Source: Flavobacteriales bacterium (GTDB lineage Bacteria; Bacteroidota; Bacteroidia; Flavobacteriales; Schleiferiaceae). From it: a stretch of DNA of 64,000 nt. The stretch lies in NCBI GenBank assembly GCA_017795025.1, contig CP051243.1, positions 2,752,897-2,816,896 on the forward strand. Reading direction: 5' to 3'. Positions 2,969 through 10,073 of the stretch are shown piece by piece (positions within the stretch are counted from its first letter, which is position 1; each line of letters starts with the position of its first letter). Made by a program: the position numbers and the translations under genes. A model generated the notes under the pieces. It saw only the letters and a list, made by a program, of their open reading frames with translations, ran no database searches and was not told the DNA's origin.

Positions 2969-5900
2969 CTAGAGCAGCGCTAATCGGCTGTTAAGTCCTT
3001 CAAAATCAAGAGCTTCTCCTTCGAAGTCTGCTTCTTGCCAGTGAATGGCATCTGCAAGAACTTCAGCTTTAACATAATTTTCATTGGCTTGAAGCGCCGC
3101 TTTAAGCGTACTATCCTCTTTAAGGCGTAGCTCGATGCGATCGGTAACCTCCAAGCCGCTATCTTTTCGTAAGTTCTGAATGCGGTTTACTAGTTCCCGA
3201 GCAATACCCTCATTACGTAGGTCCTCGTCAATGTGAATGTCCAGGGCCACCGTCCACTTATTCTCGCTCATCACCAACCAACCAGGAATATCCTCGGTGT
3301 GGATTTCTACATCCTCAGCTTCAATACGCTGTAGCTTGCCATCTAATTCAATTTCATAGTATCCTTGGTTTTCCAAGGCGGCAATTTCACTTTGATCGAA
3401 ATCACGAATTAGCGCAGCGATTTGCTTCATCTGCTTGCCAAAGCGAGGACCTAGTTTTTTAAAGTCGGGCTTTATGCTCTTTACCAAAACACCTTCTACC
3501 TCACGTAAAACCTCGAGTTCTTTAACGTTAACTTCGGCAATTAGTATGTCTTTAATACTGTTTAATAGCGATTCACTTTCATCGCTAAGGGCCGGCACCA
3601 TAATCTTCTGTAGCGGCTGACGCAGCTTGATACCCTCCTTTTTACGCAGGGAATGTACCATAGAGCTCAATTGACGTGTTGTGGCCATGCGCTCATTTAA
3701 GCGAGCATCAATCGCCTTTTCCTGGGCTTTGGGCCAATAGCTGAGATGTACTGATTGCCCGGCGCCATTTTCTAAATCCTGATAAAGACGATCGGCAAAG
3801 AAGGGAGCAATAGGCGAAATTAATTGCGCCAAATTGCGCAAACAGCGATAAAGTGTATCGTAGGCCATCTGCTTATCCTCACTCATCTCGCCTTTCCAAA
3901 AACGACGACGATTTAAGCGAACGTACCAATTGCTCAGCTCCTCATCAACAAAATATTCAATGGCACGAGCAGCTTTGGTGGGCTCGTAGTCCTGATAGCT
4001 ATTTTCCACCTTTAAAATAAGTTCTTGCAAACGGGATAAAATCCAACGGTCGAGTTCAGGACGACGCTCCCAGGCCGACTCCTTATTGGCATCGTAAGTA
4101 TAGCCATCGATATTGGCATAAAGTGCGAAGAAGGAATAGGTGTTGTAAAGGGTGCCAAAGAAACGACGCTGCACTTCGGCCACGCCCTCTAAATCAAACT
4201 TTAAATTATCCCAGGGAGAGGCATTGCTAATCATATACCAGCGAACGGGATCACTACCAAACTTTTCAATGGTACTAAAGGGGTCTACAGCATTGCCCAG
4301 GCGCTTCGACATCTTAGCGCCATTTTTATCTAAAACGAGACCGTTCGAAACCACATTCTTATACGCAACTCTATCGAAAACCAAACCGGCTATAGCGTGT
4401 AAGGTGTAAAACCAGCCTCGAGTTTGATCTACGCCCTCAGCGATAAAATCGGCGGGATAAAGTTGGTCGAACTGCTCCTTGTTTTCAAAAGGATAATGCC
4501 ATTGGGCATAGGGCATAGACCCCGAGTCGAACCAAACATCAATCAAGTCGGATTCTCGATGCATCGGCTTTCCAGAGTCGGAAACCAATACAATTTTGTC
4601 TACAATATGTCGGTGTAAATCAACCTGGGCATAATTGGCCTCTGACATATCTCCTGGCTCAAACTGGGCAAAGGGATGTTCTTGCATAAAGCCTTTTTGC
4701 ACCGCTTCATCACAAGCCTCTTTTAGTTCGGCAATACTGCCAAAAACTTTCTGCTCTGTACCATCTTCGGTAGACCAAATCGGGAGGGGAATTCCCCAGT
4801 ATCTTGAACGACTAAGGTTCCAATCATTGGCATTTTCCAGCCAATTGCCAAAGCGACCTTCACCAGTACTTTTTGGCTTCCAGTTAATGGTTTTATTTAA
4901 AGCAACTAACTGCTCGCGCTTCTCAGTCACTTTAATAAACCAAGAGTCTAAAGGATAGTACAAAACGGGTTTATCCGTTCGCCAACAATGGGGGTAGGAG
5001 TGATTGTATTTCTCAACCTTAAAGGCCTGATTGCGCTCCTTGAGTAGAATGGAAATTTCCACATCTAGGGAACGCTCGGGAGCTTCCCCATCTAAATAGT
5101 ATTCGTTTTTAACGTACCAGCCACCAAAGGGACCAATACCCTCACGCATTCTACCTTGGAGGTCAACTAGGGGAACAGGATTATCATTATCGTCCAAGAT
5201 CAACATGGGCGGCACGGGCGGATTGGCTTCTTTGGCCACCTTGGCATCATCGGCACCAAAAGTAGGGGCGGTATGCACAATGCCCGTTCCATCTTCGGTA
5301 GTTACAAAGTCACCAAGGATAATTCGAAAAGCATTTTCTGCCCCTTCATAAGGCTGCGCCCAATCGAGTAACTGCTCATAGCGAAGGTTTTCGAGCTCGG
5401 CTCCTTTTCCTTCCCAAACTAGGCGCCATGGGATTAGTTTATCCCCAAGTTTATAAGCCTCCATATCGGCTTCAGCTCCTTCGGCCTTAAAGTATTTACT
5501 TACTAAGCTTTTGGCTAAAACCACCTTTTGGCCTAAGCCGGTGTAGGGGTTAAAGCTATCGATCATTTGATAATCGATTTTAGGACCTACCGTAAGTGCG
5601 GTATTCGAGGGAAGGGTCCAAGGGGTGGTGGTCCAGGCGATGTAATAAACCCGGTCATCGCTTTTCACCGCCTCCCCAAATAGCGCCTTAAACTTTTCAT
5701 CCTTTAGGGCAATAAACTGAGCGATGGCTGAGGTGTCTTTCACATCGCGATAAGACCCAGGCATGTTGAGTTCGTGAGAGCTAAGTCCGGTTCCAGCCTT
5801 TGGACTGTAGGGCTGAATGGTATAGCCTTTATAAATAAGTTTTTTATCCCAAAGCTGTTTTAAAAGCCACCATACCGATTCCATGTATTTAGGTTGATAG

Positions 5901-6355
5901 GTAACATAGGGATCGTCCATATCTACCCAGTAACCCATTTTTTCGGTCAGGTCGTTCCAGATATCGGTATAGCGCATTACCGCCTTTTTACAGGCTTCAT
6001 TGTACTCCTCAACACTAATGCTCTTTCCGATATCTTCTTTGGTGATTCCAAGTTCTTTTTCCACGCCAAGCTCAACTGGTAAGCCGTGGGTGTCCCAGCC
6101 TGCTTTGCGTTTTACTTGTTTCCCTTGTAGGGTTTGAAAACGGCAAAAAATATCCTTAATCGCACGGGCCATAACGTGATGGATCCCCGGCATGCCGTTG
6201 GCAGAGGGAGGGCCTTCATAAAACACAAAGCTGGGCGCACCATCTCTACTGCTTATGCTCTTGGCAAAGCTGTCGTCCTTTTTCCAGAAATCGAGGATTT
6301 CACGGTTGATGGCGGCAAGGTCTAATCGCTTGTACTCAGGATAATTGCGGGACAT
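2969..6355 (-). CDS. ileS: Isoleucyl-tRNA synthetase
   Basis: 1128 residues, a class I aminoacyl-tRNA synthetase charging tRNA-Ile. The HIGH-type motif reads PPSANGMPGIHH (residues 49-60), the family block WDTHGLPVE follows, and the KMSKS motif reads KMSKR (681-685). An insertion editing domain of normal size (about 200-420) includes TEDGTGIVHTAPTFGADD, the CP1 editing signature. The C-terminal anticodon-binding domain is long, without an obvious zinc-finger Cys cluster, as in the IleS2-like long type. The ATG at 6355 is the natural start. The gene reads divergently from the channel gene at 6611. Confidence 0.97.
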   Translation of the reverse strand: MSRNYPEYKRLDLAAINREILDFWKKDDSFAKSISSRDGAPSFVFYEGPPSANGMPGIHHVMARAIKDIFCRFQTLQGKQVKRKAGWDTHGLPVELGVEKELGITKEDIGKSISVEEYNEACKKAVMRYTDIWNDLTEKMGYWVDMDDPYVTYQPKYMESVWWLLKQLWDKKLIYKGYTIQPYSPKAGTGLSSHELNMPGSYRDVKDTSAIAQFIALKDEKFKALFGEAVKSDDRVYYIAWTTTPWTLPSNTALTVGPKIDYQMIDSFNPYTGLGQKVVLAKSLVSKYFKAEGAEADMEAYKLGDKLIPWRLVWEGKGAELENLRYEQLLDWAQPYEGAENAFRIILGDFVTTEDGTGIVHTAPTFGADDAKVAKEANPPVPPMLILDDNDNPVPLVDLQGRMREGIGPFGGWYVKNEYYLDGEAPERSLDVEISILLKERNQAFKVEKYNHSYPHCWRTDKPVLYYPLDSWFIKVTEKREQLVALNKTINWKPKSTGEGRFGNWLENANDWNLSRSRYWGIPLPIWSTEDGTEQKVFGSIAELKEACDEAVQKGFMQEHPFAQFEPGDMSEANYAQVDLHRHIVDKIVLVSDSGKPMHRESDLIDVWFDSGSMPYAQWHYPFENKEQFDQLYPADFIAEGVDQTRGWFYTLHAIAGLVFDRVAYKNVVSNGLVLDKNGAKMSKRLGNAVDPFSTIEKFGSDPVRWYMISNASPWDNLKFDLEGVAEVQRRFFGTLYNTYSFFALYANIDGYTYDANKESAWERRPELDRWILSRLQELILKVENSYQDYEPTKAARAIEYFVDEELSNWYVRLNRRRFWKGEMSEDKQMAYDTLYRCLRNLAQLISPIAPFFADRLYQDLENGAGQSVHLSYWPKAQEKAIDARLNERMATTRQLSSMVHSLRKKEGIKLRQPLQKIMVPALSDESESLLNSIKDILIAEVNVKELEVLREVEGVLVKSIKPDFKKLGPRFGKQMKQIAALIRDFDQSEIAALENQGYYEIELDGKLQRIEAEDVEIHTEDIPGWLVMSENKWTVALDIHIDEDLRNEGIARELVNRIQNLRKDSGLEVTDRIELRLKEDSTLKAALQANENYVKAEVLADAIHWQEADFEGEALDFEGLNSRLALL

Positions 6356-6610: not shown

Positions 6611-7666
6611 ATGAGATTTCGATTACTGCTATTTGCCAGTCTTTTAAGCGGATTAATCTGCGCGCAGGATTCTACCCTCACCATTGGCTTAAAAAAAACC
6701 CCGCCCTTTATTATGCAAGATGCATCGGGCAGACCATCGGGTTTAAGTCATAGCTTTTGGGAGCTCATCGACGATCAGGTGCCAGCCAAAATTAAATACC
6801 ACTGGTACGAAGATGTTGAAAGTATGCTGGAAGCGGTAGCTCGCGAAGAGGTGGATTTTTCGATTAATCCCATAACGGTAACCGAGCAGCGCATGGATAG
6901 CCTCGATTTCTCGCAACCGTATTTTATCTCCGGAACCGCCATGGTACGGAGGGCCGAGAACTCTTGGATGATTTTCTTGGAGAACTTTTTTAGCAAACAG
7001 TTTTTCTCGGCTATTGCTATTTTACTGGGGGTGATTCTTTTGTTTGGAATCCTAGTTTGGCTTTTTGAACGTCAGAAAAAGGAAGGCACGCAGTTTAGGC
7101 GTAATTGGCGAGGAATTTTAGATGGATTTTGGTGGTCGGCAGTTACTATGACCACCGTGGGTTATGGGGATAAATCGCCAGAAACCGGAGGTGGTCGCAC
7201 CATCGCCTTTATTTGGATGTTTACCGCCATCTTATTGATTTCGGGTTTAACCGCAGGGGTGGCCTCAGCGCTTACCGTAAAAAGTATGGAGAGCAAGATT
7301 GAAAATGTGGAAGACTTACGTCGATTTAAAACGGGTACTATTGATGCCACTGGCACGGCGGAATACTTGCGCAATTATGGTTTACCCGATGTCTACTTCG
7401 AAAGTGTGGAAGAGGGCTTTGCGGCCTTAAAGGCTGGGGAGATTGACATTTTTGTTTTCGACAGACCCGTTTTGCGATTCTATTTGGAAAAAGGCGATAA
7501 TCAGGATTTGGTTTTAGATGATCGTAACTTAAAAACAGATTACTACAGCTTCACCTATCCCAAGCATAGTTCGTTACGTGCGGCTCTCGACCCCAAGATT
7601 GTTAAGGCCCTAAAGTCCGACTCTTGGAACTTTATTTTAAGACGGGCTAGTAAAACCGGCGATTAG
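6611..7666 (+). CDS. Prokaryotic ionotropic glutamate-receptor-like K+ channel (GluR0 type)
   Basis: 351 residues combining a periplasmic ligand-binding domain with a potassium pore. Order: signal peptide (1-18); binding lobe S1 (22-115), with the NPITVTEQR...FSQPY block where Arg94 matches the ligand-carboxylate arginine of the SBP3/iGluR fold; first membrane helix (131-153); pore loop with TMTTVGYGD (179-187), the K+ selectivity filter; second pore helix (197-219); binding lobe S2 (225-345) with an acidic Asp in IDIFVFDRP. This is the architecture of GluR0 from Synechocystis: an SBP split by a KcsA-like pore and lacking the extra C-terminal helix of eukaryotic receptors. Function as a ligand-gated K+ channel is inferred; the ligand is unknown. 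It stands alone with its own candidate promoter. Confidence 0.88.
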   Translation: MRFRLLLFASLLSGLICAQDSTLTIGLKKTPPFIMQDASGRPSGLSHSFWELIDDQVPAKIKYHWYEDVESMLEAVAREEVDFSINPITVTEQRMDSLDFSQPYFISGTAMVRRAENSWMIFLENFFSKQFFSAIAILLGVILLFGILVWLFERQKKEGTQFRRNWRGILDGFWWSAVTMTTVGYGDKSPETGGGRTIAFIWMFTAILLISGLTAGVASALTVKSMESKIENVEDLRRFKTGTIDATGTAEYLRNYGLPDVYFESVEEGFAALKAGEIDIFVFDRPVLRFYLEKGDNQDLVLDDRNLKTDYYSFTYPKHSSLRAALDPKIVKALKSDSWNFILRRASKTGD

Positions 7667-7717
7667 CCAACAAACAAAACCCTTTCTTAAAACCTTATAC
7701 AGAAAACGACATTAAGT

Positions 7718-8614
7718 ATGAAAGCAAAACATCTATTCCCATTCTTCGCATTAGCAATTGCCGTAGGTTGCAATCAAAACGCCGGTTCCAAAGAATCTTC
7801 CGATGCCAAAAAGGAGGAGCCAACTAAAGAAGAAGCCAGCGCATCAGCCGCCAAGGCAAGCTTAGAAATGGAATGGGATAGTGAAGTCTATTACCCTACT
7901 AATGAGTCGGTGCTTTATGAGCCCAACCAGAATATATTGTACGTAAGTTGTATTGCGGGTAAACCCACCGAAATTGACGGCAAAGGGCATATTGCGCGAA
8001 TGGCGGTCGACGGTAGCATTATTGATTCGGTTTGGGCCCGAGGCCTAAACGCGCCTAAGGGAATGTGCATTTTCGATGGTCGATTATATGTAAGTGATGT
8101 AAATAGAATCGTGTCGATAAACCTTGATAACCCAGAGGACAAGGTGGCTTATGAAGTGCCAGGCTCGGTATTTTTAAACGACCTAACTGCCGGTCTTCGA
8201 GGCGTGTTTTTCTCGGATATGCAAACCGGGATGCTCCATTACCTGGAATCAGGTATAGTGCATACCATCAACGAAAACCTTCCTAATTTGAATGGACTGG
8301 CCTATTTCGAAAACCAGCTTTATGCGCTTAACGCAGATGGTTTATTACGACTGTCGCCAGGAGGAGAAGTTCTTGAAACGGTAAATAGCACTGTAACCGG
8401 TGGGGATGGACTTATCCCCTTGGGAGATAATCGCTTTATAGCCAGTCGCTGGCAAGGCGAAATTTGGTTTATCGAGGGTCCAGAGGCGCATAAAATGTTC
8501 GACGCTACCGCTGATGAAATTCAAACTGCGGATATTGGTTATAACCCCAATACGCAAACCGTGTATGCGCCGCGTTTCTTTGCCAATAAAGTAACGGCCT
8601 TTAAACTGAAATAA
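7718..8614 (+). CDS. SMP-30/gluconolactonase-like beta-propeller lipoprotein
   Basis: 298 residues. A lipoprotein signal ends at AVGC (Cys18), followed by a charged Lys/Glu/Ser/Ala linker (about 20-50). The rest resembles a six-bladed propeller of the SMP-30/gluconolactonase/NHL kind: NVLYEPNQN-like entry, RGLNAPKGMCIFDGRLYVSDVNRI, and ENLPNLNGLAY, with the Asp-Asn-containing turns that bind a divalent metal in the family. Related Bacteroidota lipoproteins are annotated as SMP-30-like without a proven substrate. It is the only plus-strand neighbour of the channel gene, 51 bases downstream, and could be co-transcribed with it. Its stop abuts the stop of the convergent ATPase gene with no base between. 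Confidence 0.7.
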   Translation: MKAKHLFPFFALAIAVGCNQNAGSKESSDAKKEEPTKEEASASAAKASLEMEWDSEVYYPTNESVLYEPNQNILYVSCIAGKPTEIDGKGHIARMAVDGSIIDSVWARGLNAPKGMCIFDGRLYVSDVNRIVSINLDNPEDKVAYEVPGSVFLNDLTAGLRGVFFSDMQTGMLHYLESGIVHTINENLPNLNGLAYFENQLYALNADGLLRLSPGGEVLETVNSTVTGGDGLIPLGDNRFIASRWQGEIWFIEGPEAHKMFDATADEIQTADIGYNPNTQTVYAPRFFANKVTAFKLK

Positions 8615-9559
8615 TTAAAGTCCTTTTTGAAAATAGAGGTATTGAATCCAGCGGTGAAGGATAGGGTCGCTTAACTGATAACCCTCCTCATTGCGGTAAA
8701 TGTACTTGCTATCTAACAGGTTGCGAAGTGCCCGTTCCACCGAGCTGGCCGCCCCTAGTTTATGTCGAACGAGGAAATCAAAGGCATGGGGCTGACTCAC
8801 AATTTCCTCGGAGGCCAGTGCGCGCAATAGGCGCCATTGCAAATCGGTAAACCTAGCTCGGAGCATTCTAAACTGCACCGCATAGGTTTTGTAAAAGTCG
8901 TCGGGCTTAAATTCGGAGTGCCGCTTAATATTGGCCTCCAAGGCTTTGAGAAAGGCTAGGTTGCCTTTGCAATATTGTAAAAGAGAAGCCTGTTGCTCGG
9001 TAGGGGCATCCCATACTTCTTCCAGGGCTGGGATCTCTAAGGCCAGATGTTGTTTTTTGGGTAAAAACGATTCTTCTGAAAGTACGAGTAGCTGAATATT
9101 AGCGGCGCGAGCCATATTACTAAAGCTATCCACTAACTGCCGACCATCGATTTCGGGCACTTCTGAAAACTCAGGGTTAATGAGGCTTATTACCAAATCG
9201 AGACCCACATTAAATAGTAGTCCGGTTAGGCTTTCGAGGTAGGCCAGTAAATCTGTTTTTTCACGGATTCGATGCTGAGGGTGTTCCTGATTTAGGCGCT
9301 TTACTTGGTATTCGAGGCCCGCATTTTGACGACAGGTTTCTTCGAGGCCCTCGCGCAATCGAAAGACAAGCTCTTCAAATTGAAACAGCCCCTCGAAGCC
9401 TAAACTTAGAATTAACCTTCGGCCTTCCAGTTTTTGCTTGAGCTGTGCCAGGAGATAGGTTTTTCCAGAACCAGCGGGCCCAGTCATTTGCAGATTTTCC
9501 CGGGCCATTATTCGATCGTAGGCTATTTGCAATTCGCTTGCGCGGATGCGGTCCTTCAT
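8615..9559 (-). CDS. AAA-type P-loop ATPase with C-terminal winged helix, substrate unknown
   Basis: 314 residues. A clear Walker A, GPAGSGKTY (27-35), follows a short N-terminal helix, as in the archaeal-ATPase/ORC-like STAND-related group. The Walker B region is unclear: the best candidate is LDLVISLINPEF (about 119-130), without the usual Asp-Glu pair. QLLVLSEES looks like the sensor-1 strand. The C-terminal third (about 225-314) reads as a winged helix, with LTDLQWRLLRALA-type helices ending in DPILHRWIQYL, typical of this family. A small XRE regulator lies 68 bases upstream on the same strand, so the two may form one unit. Function not known; a role in DNA or stress response is only a guess. 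Confidence 0.65.
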   Translation of the reverse strand: MKDRIRASELQIAYDRIMARENLQMTGPAGSGKTYLLAQLKQKLEGRRLILSLGFEGLFQFEELVFRLREGLEETCRQNAGLEYQVKRLNQEHPQHRIREKTDLLAYLESLTGLLFNVGLDLVISLINPEFSEVPEIDGRQLVDSFSNMARAANIQLLVLSEESFLPKKQHLALEIPALEEVWDAPTEQQASLLQYCKGNLAFLKALEANIKRHSEFKPDDFYKTYAVQFRMLRARFTDLQWRLLRALASEEIVSQPHAFDFLVRHKLGAASSVERALRNLLDSKYIYRNEEGYQLSDPILHRWIQYLYFQKGL

Positions 9560-9627: not shown

Positions 9628-9960
9628 TTAGGTTTGATCAGCTCGCAGCAAACGCTCCAATAACATTTTAAGTTCTAGAATTTCCTCCCGACTGGATTCG
9701 TTCACATTTTTAGTGGTCTCTCGCCACTGCATACGAAGGAACTCCTTTCGGTCTAAAATTAAGAGCTCATGAACAGTAACCTCTAATATATCGGCGATTT
9801 GGTAAAGTCGGCGGACGCTCAATTTCGTTTCGCCGAGTTCAATTTTAGAATAGGCTCTAGTGCTTAGGTCCAACTCAATGGCCATATACTGTTGAGTTAA
9901 GCCTCGCCATTCGCGGAGCCACCGAATTTTTTGACAAAGTTGGGTTTCATTAAGTTCCAT
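9628..9960 (-). CDS. XRE-family helix-turn-helix regulator
   Basis: About 110 residues, counted from the ATG at 9960 (an in-frame TTG at 9981 would add seven). The helix-turn-helix is plain: IRWLREWRGLTQQYMAIELD, then STRAYSKIELGETKLSVRRLYQIADIL, matching the Cro/CI fold. A coiled, charged tail (about 75-110) follows and may mediate dimerisation. It lies upstream of the P-loop ATPase on the same strand and downstream of an AT-rich spacer holding three inverted repeats, which are candidate operators. Short regulators of this type in Bacteroidota often precede small stress or mobile-element genes, but no mobile gene is visible here. Confidence 0.85.
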   Translation of the reverse strand: MELNETQLCQKIRWLREWRGLTQQYMAIELDLSTRAYSKIELGETKLSVRRLYQIADILEVTVHELLILDRKEFLRMQWRETTKNVNESSREEILELKMLLERLLRADQT

Positions 9961-10073
9961 CACCCGGTTTCGAATTAACAATTTTTAAGTGGGGGTGTGG
10001 GGTTGAAAATGCCCTACTAAGGAAAATAATAATATCCTTTTTTAAAACATTTTACCGCGATTTTTTAAGCGCA

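Follow-up and report, generated by a model that had tools for sequence, protein, structure and literature searches.

Ger et al. (2010; PMC2950845) define 22 prokaryotic glutamate receptors; the 12 that carry a K+ filter make up Group 1, in which an Arg and an Asp are conserved. In Group 1, two lobes stand on either side of two helices and a K+-filter P-loop; the Arg lies in S1 and the Asp in S2, and in GluR0 these two residues bind the alpha-carboxyl and the alpha-amino group of the ligand. The set is described there as concentrated in certain subgroups of bacteria, most of all the cyanobacteria. Zhang et al. (2026; PMC13099474) place GluR0 in the plasma membrane and report that it sustains K+ uptake in E. 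coli LB2003 and influences cell volume after KCl upshock. According to the same study, the orientation of GluR0 is opposite to that of KcsA, with both ends outside, some of the fusion data not being significant, and Q127 is named as a dimer residue (PMC13099474).

Unlike the set of Ger et al., the channel described here comes from a marine family of the Flavobacteriales. Its gene lies within a stretch of 64,000 nucleotides, referred to below as the window. An earlier note, made from the letters of this DNA, had described a small, complete gene of this type at positions 6611 to 7666, and an intact ORF of 351 codons was found there, with the following features.

6611-7666, + strand, GluR0-type channel gene with an ATG start, 351 aa (ORF, Pfam, AlphaFold2 model)
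6611-6664, + strand, N-terminal signal sequence, residues ~1-18 (by eye; helix at residues 2-16 in the model; 'AQD'-like end in several relatives)
6665-6952, + strand, lobe 1 (S1), residues ~19-114, with Phe33, Pro87, Thr89, and Arg94 (model; alignments with GluR0 1iit and AMPA receptors)
6995-7069, + strand, M1 transmembrane helix, residues 129-153 (model helix; hydropathy peak at 125-155)
7112-7150, + strand, pore helix, residues 168-180 (model)
7154-7171, + strand, K+ selectivity filter TVGYGD, residues 182-187 (identical in 79/79 aligned proteins)
7187-7291, + strand, M2 pore-lining helix, residues 193-227, with SGLTAGVASALTV (model)
7292-7663, + strand, lobe 2 (S2), residues 228-351, with Asp284 and the loop TGT at 247-249 (model; FDRP motif common with GluR0)

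Three Pfam families matched the channel protein above their curated cutoffs. SBP_bac_3 (64.3 bits, residues 23 to 340) spans the other two, Lig_chan (56.1 bits, residues 138 to 240) and Ion_trans_2 (53.8 bits, residues 139 to 222). This order and the predicted structure agree with the earlier description of an SBP fold split by a two-helix pore with TVGYGD. Every match to NCBIfam names fell below its cutoff. In its own genome, a single contig of 3,439,134 bases, the channel was the sole Lig_chan match at an E value of 0.001. A stop-free orthologue was present in all six of the other genus genomes searched, and purifying selection on the channel was observed in one pair of relatives, G001 and G005 (dN/dS, 0.03), the sole printed pair with unsaturated silent sites; between the window channel and its relatives, silent sites were saturated, so that dN/dS cannot be given. 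A chance reading frame, a remnant, or a broken gene was also considered and is rejected on the strength of the stop-free genus orthologues together with the dN/dS of the one measurable pair.

An AlphaFold2 model of the channel, built from 79 sequences, had a mean pLDDT of 91.1 and a pTM of 0.79, and in it two alpha/beta lobes enclose helices at residues 129 to 153, 168 to 180, and 193 to 227. Structure prediction had been proposed as a check for a clamshell around the pore, and in the model the two lobes do flank M1, P, and M2. When the top 1000 Foldseek chains were re-aligned with VIA-align 2, the best match was the GluR0-type core of Nostoc punctiforme (2pyy; Z, 26.9; rmsd, 2.0; 212 residues aligned), and the second was GluR0 (1ii5; Z, 26.7; rmsd, 2.1; 217 residues aligned). 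After these GluR0-type cores came glutamine-binding proteins, nearly tied at a Z of 25.9, and thus fold alone barely separates a receptor core from a binding protein; AvGluR1 (4io2) matched at a Z of 24.2. With the two lobes alone as the sequence query, 2pyy again ranked first (E value, 2.6e-21), with the GluR0 entries 1iit and 1ii5 at 9e-16. Although it is the top match by sequence and by fold, 2pyy is cyanobacterial, has 25% identity to the window channel, and as an entry comprises the ligand-binding core only.

Foldseek's own ranking placed AMPA receptor subunits first, aligning lobes and pore together (TM, ~0.5 to 0.7; rmsd, 6 to 8), presumably because these subunits contain the pore. AvGluR1 and the animal AMPA and NMDA receptors share the lobe fold with the window channel, and their pore order and gate motif can be aligned with it, whereas the window channel has a K+ filter and lacks both M4 and the amino-terminal domain. 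Its M2, the counterpart of M3 in animal receptors, contains a segment that aligns with the AMPA receptor gate motif SSYTANLAAFLTV.

The channel protein has the features by which Group 1 is defined, namely lobes on either side of two transmembrane helices and a P-loop (by Pfam order and model), a K+ filter (TVGYGD at residues 182 to 187 and the Ion_trans_2 match of 53.8 bits), an S1 Arg, and an S2 Asp, and it is a member of the known family that was catalogued in 2010. With GluR0 of Synechocystis PCC 6803 (slr1257; 1ii5, 1iit), it shares the order S1-M1-P-M2-S2 and the K+ filter, and in both proteins the Arg stands within a PxxVTxxR motif and the Asp within FDRP. However, identity across the lobes is 22%, and the distal-pocket loop differs, being RDTTAVDW in GluR0 and DATGTAEYL in the window channel.

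The earlier note had singled out Arg94 and an acidic residue of lobe 2 as candidate ligand residues and had called for a residue-by-residue comparison with GluR0. In this comparison, run against 1iit, both residues had GluR0 counterparts. Arg94 (codon at 6890 to 6892) aligns with the Arg of GluR0 and of AMPA receptors, and the acidic residue was identified as Asp284 (codon at 7460 to 7462), which aligns with the FDRP Asp of GluR0 and, in AMPA receptors, with a Glu. Residues were counted over 79 aligned proteins, comprising that of the window and those of 78 of the best 80 loci in a wider genome scan (L056 and L119, which are truncated, were omitted). Phe33, Arg94, Asp284, Thr214, and each letter of TVGYGD were identical in 79/79, Ala215 was kept in 78, and Pro87 and Thr89 were each kept in 69. 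By analogy with AMPA receptors, we take Phe33 to be the aromatic cap, Pro87 and Thr89 to be further lobe-1 contacts, and Thr249 to be part of the distal site. Gln102, which seems to correspond to the GluR0 dimer residue Q127, was kept in 72/79. Gly248 stands opposite the AMPA Ser, with Gly at this position in just 9 of the 79 rows, and Thr249 stands opposite the Thr of the AMPA distal site; both positions vary over the 79 rows. Judging from these alignments, the part of the pocket for the alpha-amino-acid end is fixed and the side-chain part is variable. Thus, glutamate as the ligand is not assured.

The clamshell, the pore, the residues for the ligand, and the K+ filter are all in place, as the GluR0-type reading in the earlier note had it. 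The gene product is very probably one subunit of a ligand-gated K+ channel of the GluR0 type, located in the inner membrane. A protein that no longer gates, being either a K+ leak that does not depend on a ligand or a receptor in decay, would be in keeping with the variable side-chain pocket residues among relatives, but this seems improbable given the identity of the core ligand residues in all 79 proteins, the stop-free genus orthologues, and the dN/dS of 0.03 in the one measurable pair. It is highly improbable that the binding protein or permease of an ABC transporter has been mistaken for a channel. SBP_bac_3 is the top Pfam match, and many prokaryotic receptors of this sort have been annotated as ABC proteins, as stated by Ger et al. 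(PMC2950845). However, the pore helix and K+ filter that lie between the lobes contradict such an assignment, the Pfam matches of the channel contain no ABC permease domain, and the receptors found by Foldseek match lobes and pore jointly, though at an rmsd of 6 to 8 and a TM of ~0.5 to 0.7.

In the 59 genomes searched, a GluR0-type orthologue was found in seven of the seven genus genomes (its own included) and in nine more of the family, at 32 to 85% identity to the window channel; the copy in G013 is in two contig pieces. The remaining channel matches among the 45 genomes listed were short and mostly to the K+ pore alone. A sample of 395 genomes of the order had the channel in 28 (E value, 1e-40), namely, the same 16 of the family and 12 more. 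The wider genome scan yielded at least 568 stretches that encode some relative of the query, not necessarily all GluR0-type, and 66 of the best 80 of these loci had Bacteroidota titles, including Christiangramia, Salegentibacter, Mesonia, Zunongwangia, Salinimicrobium, Riemerella, Phaeodactylibacter, and Fulvivirga. The other 14 were from Alcanivoracaceae (three), Idiomarina, Thiocapsa, Thalassobius, Balneolia, Verrucomicrobiota (two), single bins from other phyla, and one further bacterium. Seven of the best 80 loci (L052 to L056, L065, and L091) appear identical to genomes counted in the 59. The earlier note had considered such channels rarely studied outside cyanobacteria and gamma-proteobacteria, and a search of the open-access literature found no study of Bacteroidota members or of a propeller partner; however, with 66 of the best 80 loci titled Bacteroidota, the setting is less unusual than that statement implied.

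A maximum-likelihood tree was built from 86 rows. In it, the window protein fell within an 11-row clade of its family (support, 100/99), whereas three more rows of the family, L091, L016, and L017 (which has a long branch), lay outside this clade. Recent gain from cyanobacteria is weakly rejected by the position of the window protein inside a 75-row Bacteroidota clade, in a tree without cyanobacterial rows. This larger clade also includes single rows titled Thalassobius, Desulfobulbaceae, and Chlorobi, plus one more bacterium.

The following genes surround the channel gene.

2969-6355, - strand, isoleucyl-tRNA synthetase gene (ileS), named by eye
7718-8614, + strand, SMP-30-like six-bladed propeller lipoprotein, 298 aa, a possible partner (model, fold matches)
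8615-9559, - strand, AAA-like ATPase gene, 314 aa (weak Pfam matches only)
9628-9981, - strand, helix-turn-helix (HTH_3) protein, upstream of the AAA-like gene (Pfam)

ileS is divergent from the channel gene, with the same layout in many family loci, and the AAA-like gene is convergent with the propeller gene and stands at the same block in several family members.

The propeller ORF starts 51 bases 3' of the channel ORF on the same strand. The earlier note had called its product an SMP-30-like lipoprotein, a description supported by the propeller fold of the model (pLDDT, 87.2; residues 5 to 43 below 50) and by a lipobox, AVGC, recognized by eye. The top fold match was Cj1041c of Campylobacter jejuni (22gu, with Ca2+; Z, 31.3; rmsd, 2.1; 241 residues aligned), and matches to the SMP-30-family putative lactonase 2p4o (Z, 26.9) and to NHL propellers (Z, 27) were similar. 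Cj1041c, solved with and without Ca2+ (22gu to 22gx), has the same propeller fold at 22% identity; the window protein differs in that it looks like a lipoprotein and adjoins a channel gene. Glu63, Asn154, Asn192, and Asp230, which we take to be the SMP-30 metal site, were invariant in 18/18 homologues. The window propeller had no Pfam match at an E value of 0.01 and no name was found for it in NCBIfam, while Pfam SGL (PF08450) matched 6 of the 18 homologues.

A survey of the conservation of this neighbor had been proposed in the earlier note. Propeller matches were found in 15 of the 59 genomes (its own included), 12 of them at 41% identity or higher, and in 11 of the 12 genomes having such a close orthologue, the propeller gene lies directly 3' of the channel gene on the same strand. 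The spacing in 10 genomes ranged from a 14-base overlap to 110 bases, the ORFs overlapping in two genus genomes (L006 by 4 bases and L008 by 14 bases). In G013, the channel end and the propeller are on one contig and the same strand, ∼540 bases apart, and no co-directional ORF of 60 codons was found in the gap. Five of the 16 family genomes with a channel are without a close propeller (G014, G019, G022, G030, and G033), and the AAA gene comes immediately after the channel in G019 and G033. The reverse, a propeller without a channel, was found in G024 only, where the propeller still adjoins the AAA gene. Weaker propeller matches in G038, G051, and G052 were in genomes without a GluR0-type channel.

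In the order sample of 395 genomes, the propeller was detected in 32 (profile A2; E value, 1e-20) and both genes in 13, adjacent in 12 (11 of the family and G381) and on different contigs in G306. Outside the family, 2 of the 12 channel genomes had the propeller, adjacent in 1. The propeller gene occurred in just 20 genomes outside the family, and thus chance adjacency, reckoned from these counts, seems unlikely. Among the best 80 loci, the propeller was found in the fetched flank of 12, of which 5 were from the family (already among the 59) and 7 were from the 10 Salegentibacter loci; no propeller was within the fetched flank of the other three (L084, L088, and L092). The Salegentibacter propeller is distant (60 to 70 bits), lies 90 to 285 bases 3' of the channel, and has another gene context. 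Profile A2 contained Salegentibacter channel-adjacent sequences and was therefore biased toward that lineage; a single-sequence propeller search, within the fetched flanks only, recovered the Salegentibacter matches without the profile. The adjacency label needed at least three changes on the channel tree, with starred branches forcing two, and the seven Salegentibacter loci, being one clade, count as one event. Most of the Bacteroidota channels seen were without a propeller.

Other neighbors of the channels were also surveyed. Of 82 neighbors listed, 63, all co-directional with the channel, were kept; the other 19 were near-copies or questionable ORFs and were removed manually. A single partner gene common to all channels was considered and rejected, since none of the Pfam families matched more than 2 of the 63. 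Two neighbors each (L052 to L131) matched M16 peptidase, PCMT, DUF547, MscS-type channel, and two-component regulator propeller families. A family of lipoprotein-like proteins of 145 to 155 aa (lipobox by eye) is encoded upstream of the channel in the same orientation, sometimes with an overlap of 4 bases, at 19 loci (L058, L061, L063, L064, L067, L068, L070 to L073, L075 to L077, L079 to L082, L085, and L098) of the Christiangramia/Gramella, Salegentibacter, and Zunongwangia lineages. The lipoprotein of L070 was matched by 20 other loci, with a different place or strand in L066 and L101, and the 150-aa upstream lipoprotein had no match in Pfam.

The survey suggests a partnership between channel and propeller in that the propeller stands beside 11 of the 16 family channels; however, each gene also occurs alone, and the conservation extends to a wider block. 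ileS or the AAA gene is conserved across much of that block, and because they flank it, much of the adjacency can be traced to shared ancestry. In this family, the ileS-channel-propeller-AAA block was probably inherited as a unit, with the functions of its genes unrelated. The recurrence of ileS and the AAA gene at the same block, the absence of either channel or propeller alone in some genomes, and the lack of any Pfam family matching more than 2 of the 63 co-directional neighbors are all consistent with such simple synteny, but genes that are co-directional and closely spaced or overlapping, and the separate adjacency in Salegentibacter, are less readily accommodated by it.

A functional pair is a less likely alternative, in which the exported propeller would bind Ca2+ or another metal and would either make or remove the ligand as a lactonase-like hydrolase or dock on the clamshell as an auxiliary subunit. 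The position of 11 of the 12 close propeller orthologues directly 3' of the channel on the same strand, the ORF overlaps in L006 and L008, the distant propeller at the same place in 7 of 10 Salegentibacter loci, the three or more changes of the adjacency label, and the invariance of the four presumed SMP-30 metal-site residues in 18/18 homologues argue for it. However, the Salegentibacter loci amount to one event, common descent within the ileS/AAA flanks accounts for much of the adjacency, and the propeller changes faster than the channel (45 to 62% compared to 67 to 83% identity to six genus members). Furthermore, 5 of 16 channel genomes of the family are without a close propeller and one genome shows the reverse, and outside the family the propeller is found in 2 of 12 channel genomes and adjacent in 1.

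For the channel itself, a mechanism can be proposed by analogy with the family, on which the tetramer, the inverted topology, the ligand class, the gating, and the physiological role are modeled. Four subunits would form one pore, each with a periplasmic clamshell in which lobe 1 precedes the pore and lobe 2 follows it. An alpha-amino acid would be held between the lobes beneath Phe33, its carboxylate by Arg94 and its amino group by Asp284. Closure of the clamshell would pull M2 and open the K+-selective pore; in this way, a rise in K+ flux and a change in turgor or membrane potential would follow from an external amino acid. Judging from the spacing, the propeller gene is probably co-transcribed with the channel; a promoter and terminator scan, with counts close to those of shuffles, found no terminator-like site in the gap at 7667 to 7717. 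The propeller lipoprotein may act in the same periplasmic process as the channel.

The channel has a known architecture, that of a simple relative of animal glutamate receptors, now placed in marine Bacteroidota, and the recurrent exported propeller is the sole new lead. Auxiliary subunits modulate animal glutamate receptors. It is unlikely, though conceivable, that Bacteroidota GluR0-type channels work with lineage-specific exported partners encoded alongside. Such partners would produce, degrade, or present the ligand or influence gating. The candidates, to be viewed with the same doubt, would be the metal-binding propeller here and in some Salegentibacter and the small upstream lipoprotein in Christiangramia/Gramella, Salegentibacter, and Zunongwangia. 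If the propeller or the small lipoproteins are partners, auxiliary proteins would exist for glutamate receptors of bacteria as well, and the native ligand would be traceable through the chemistry of the partner.
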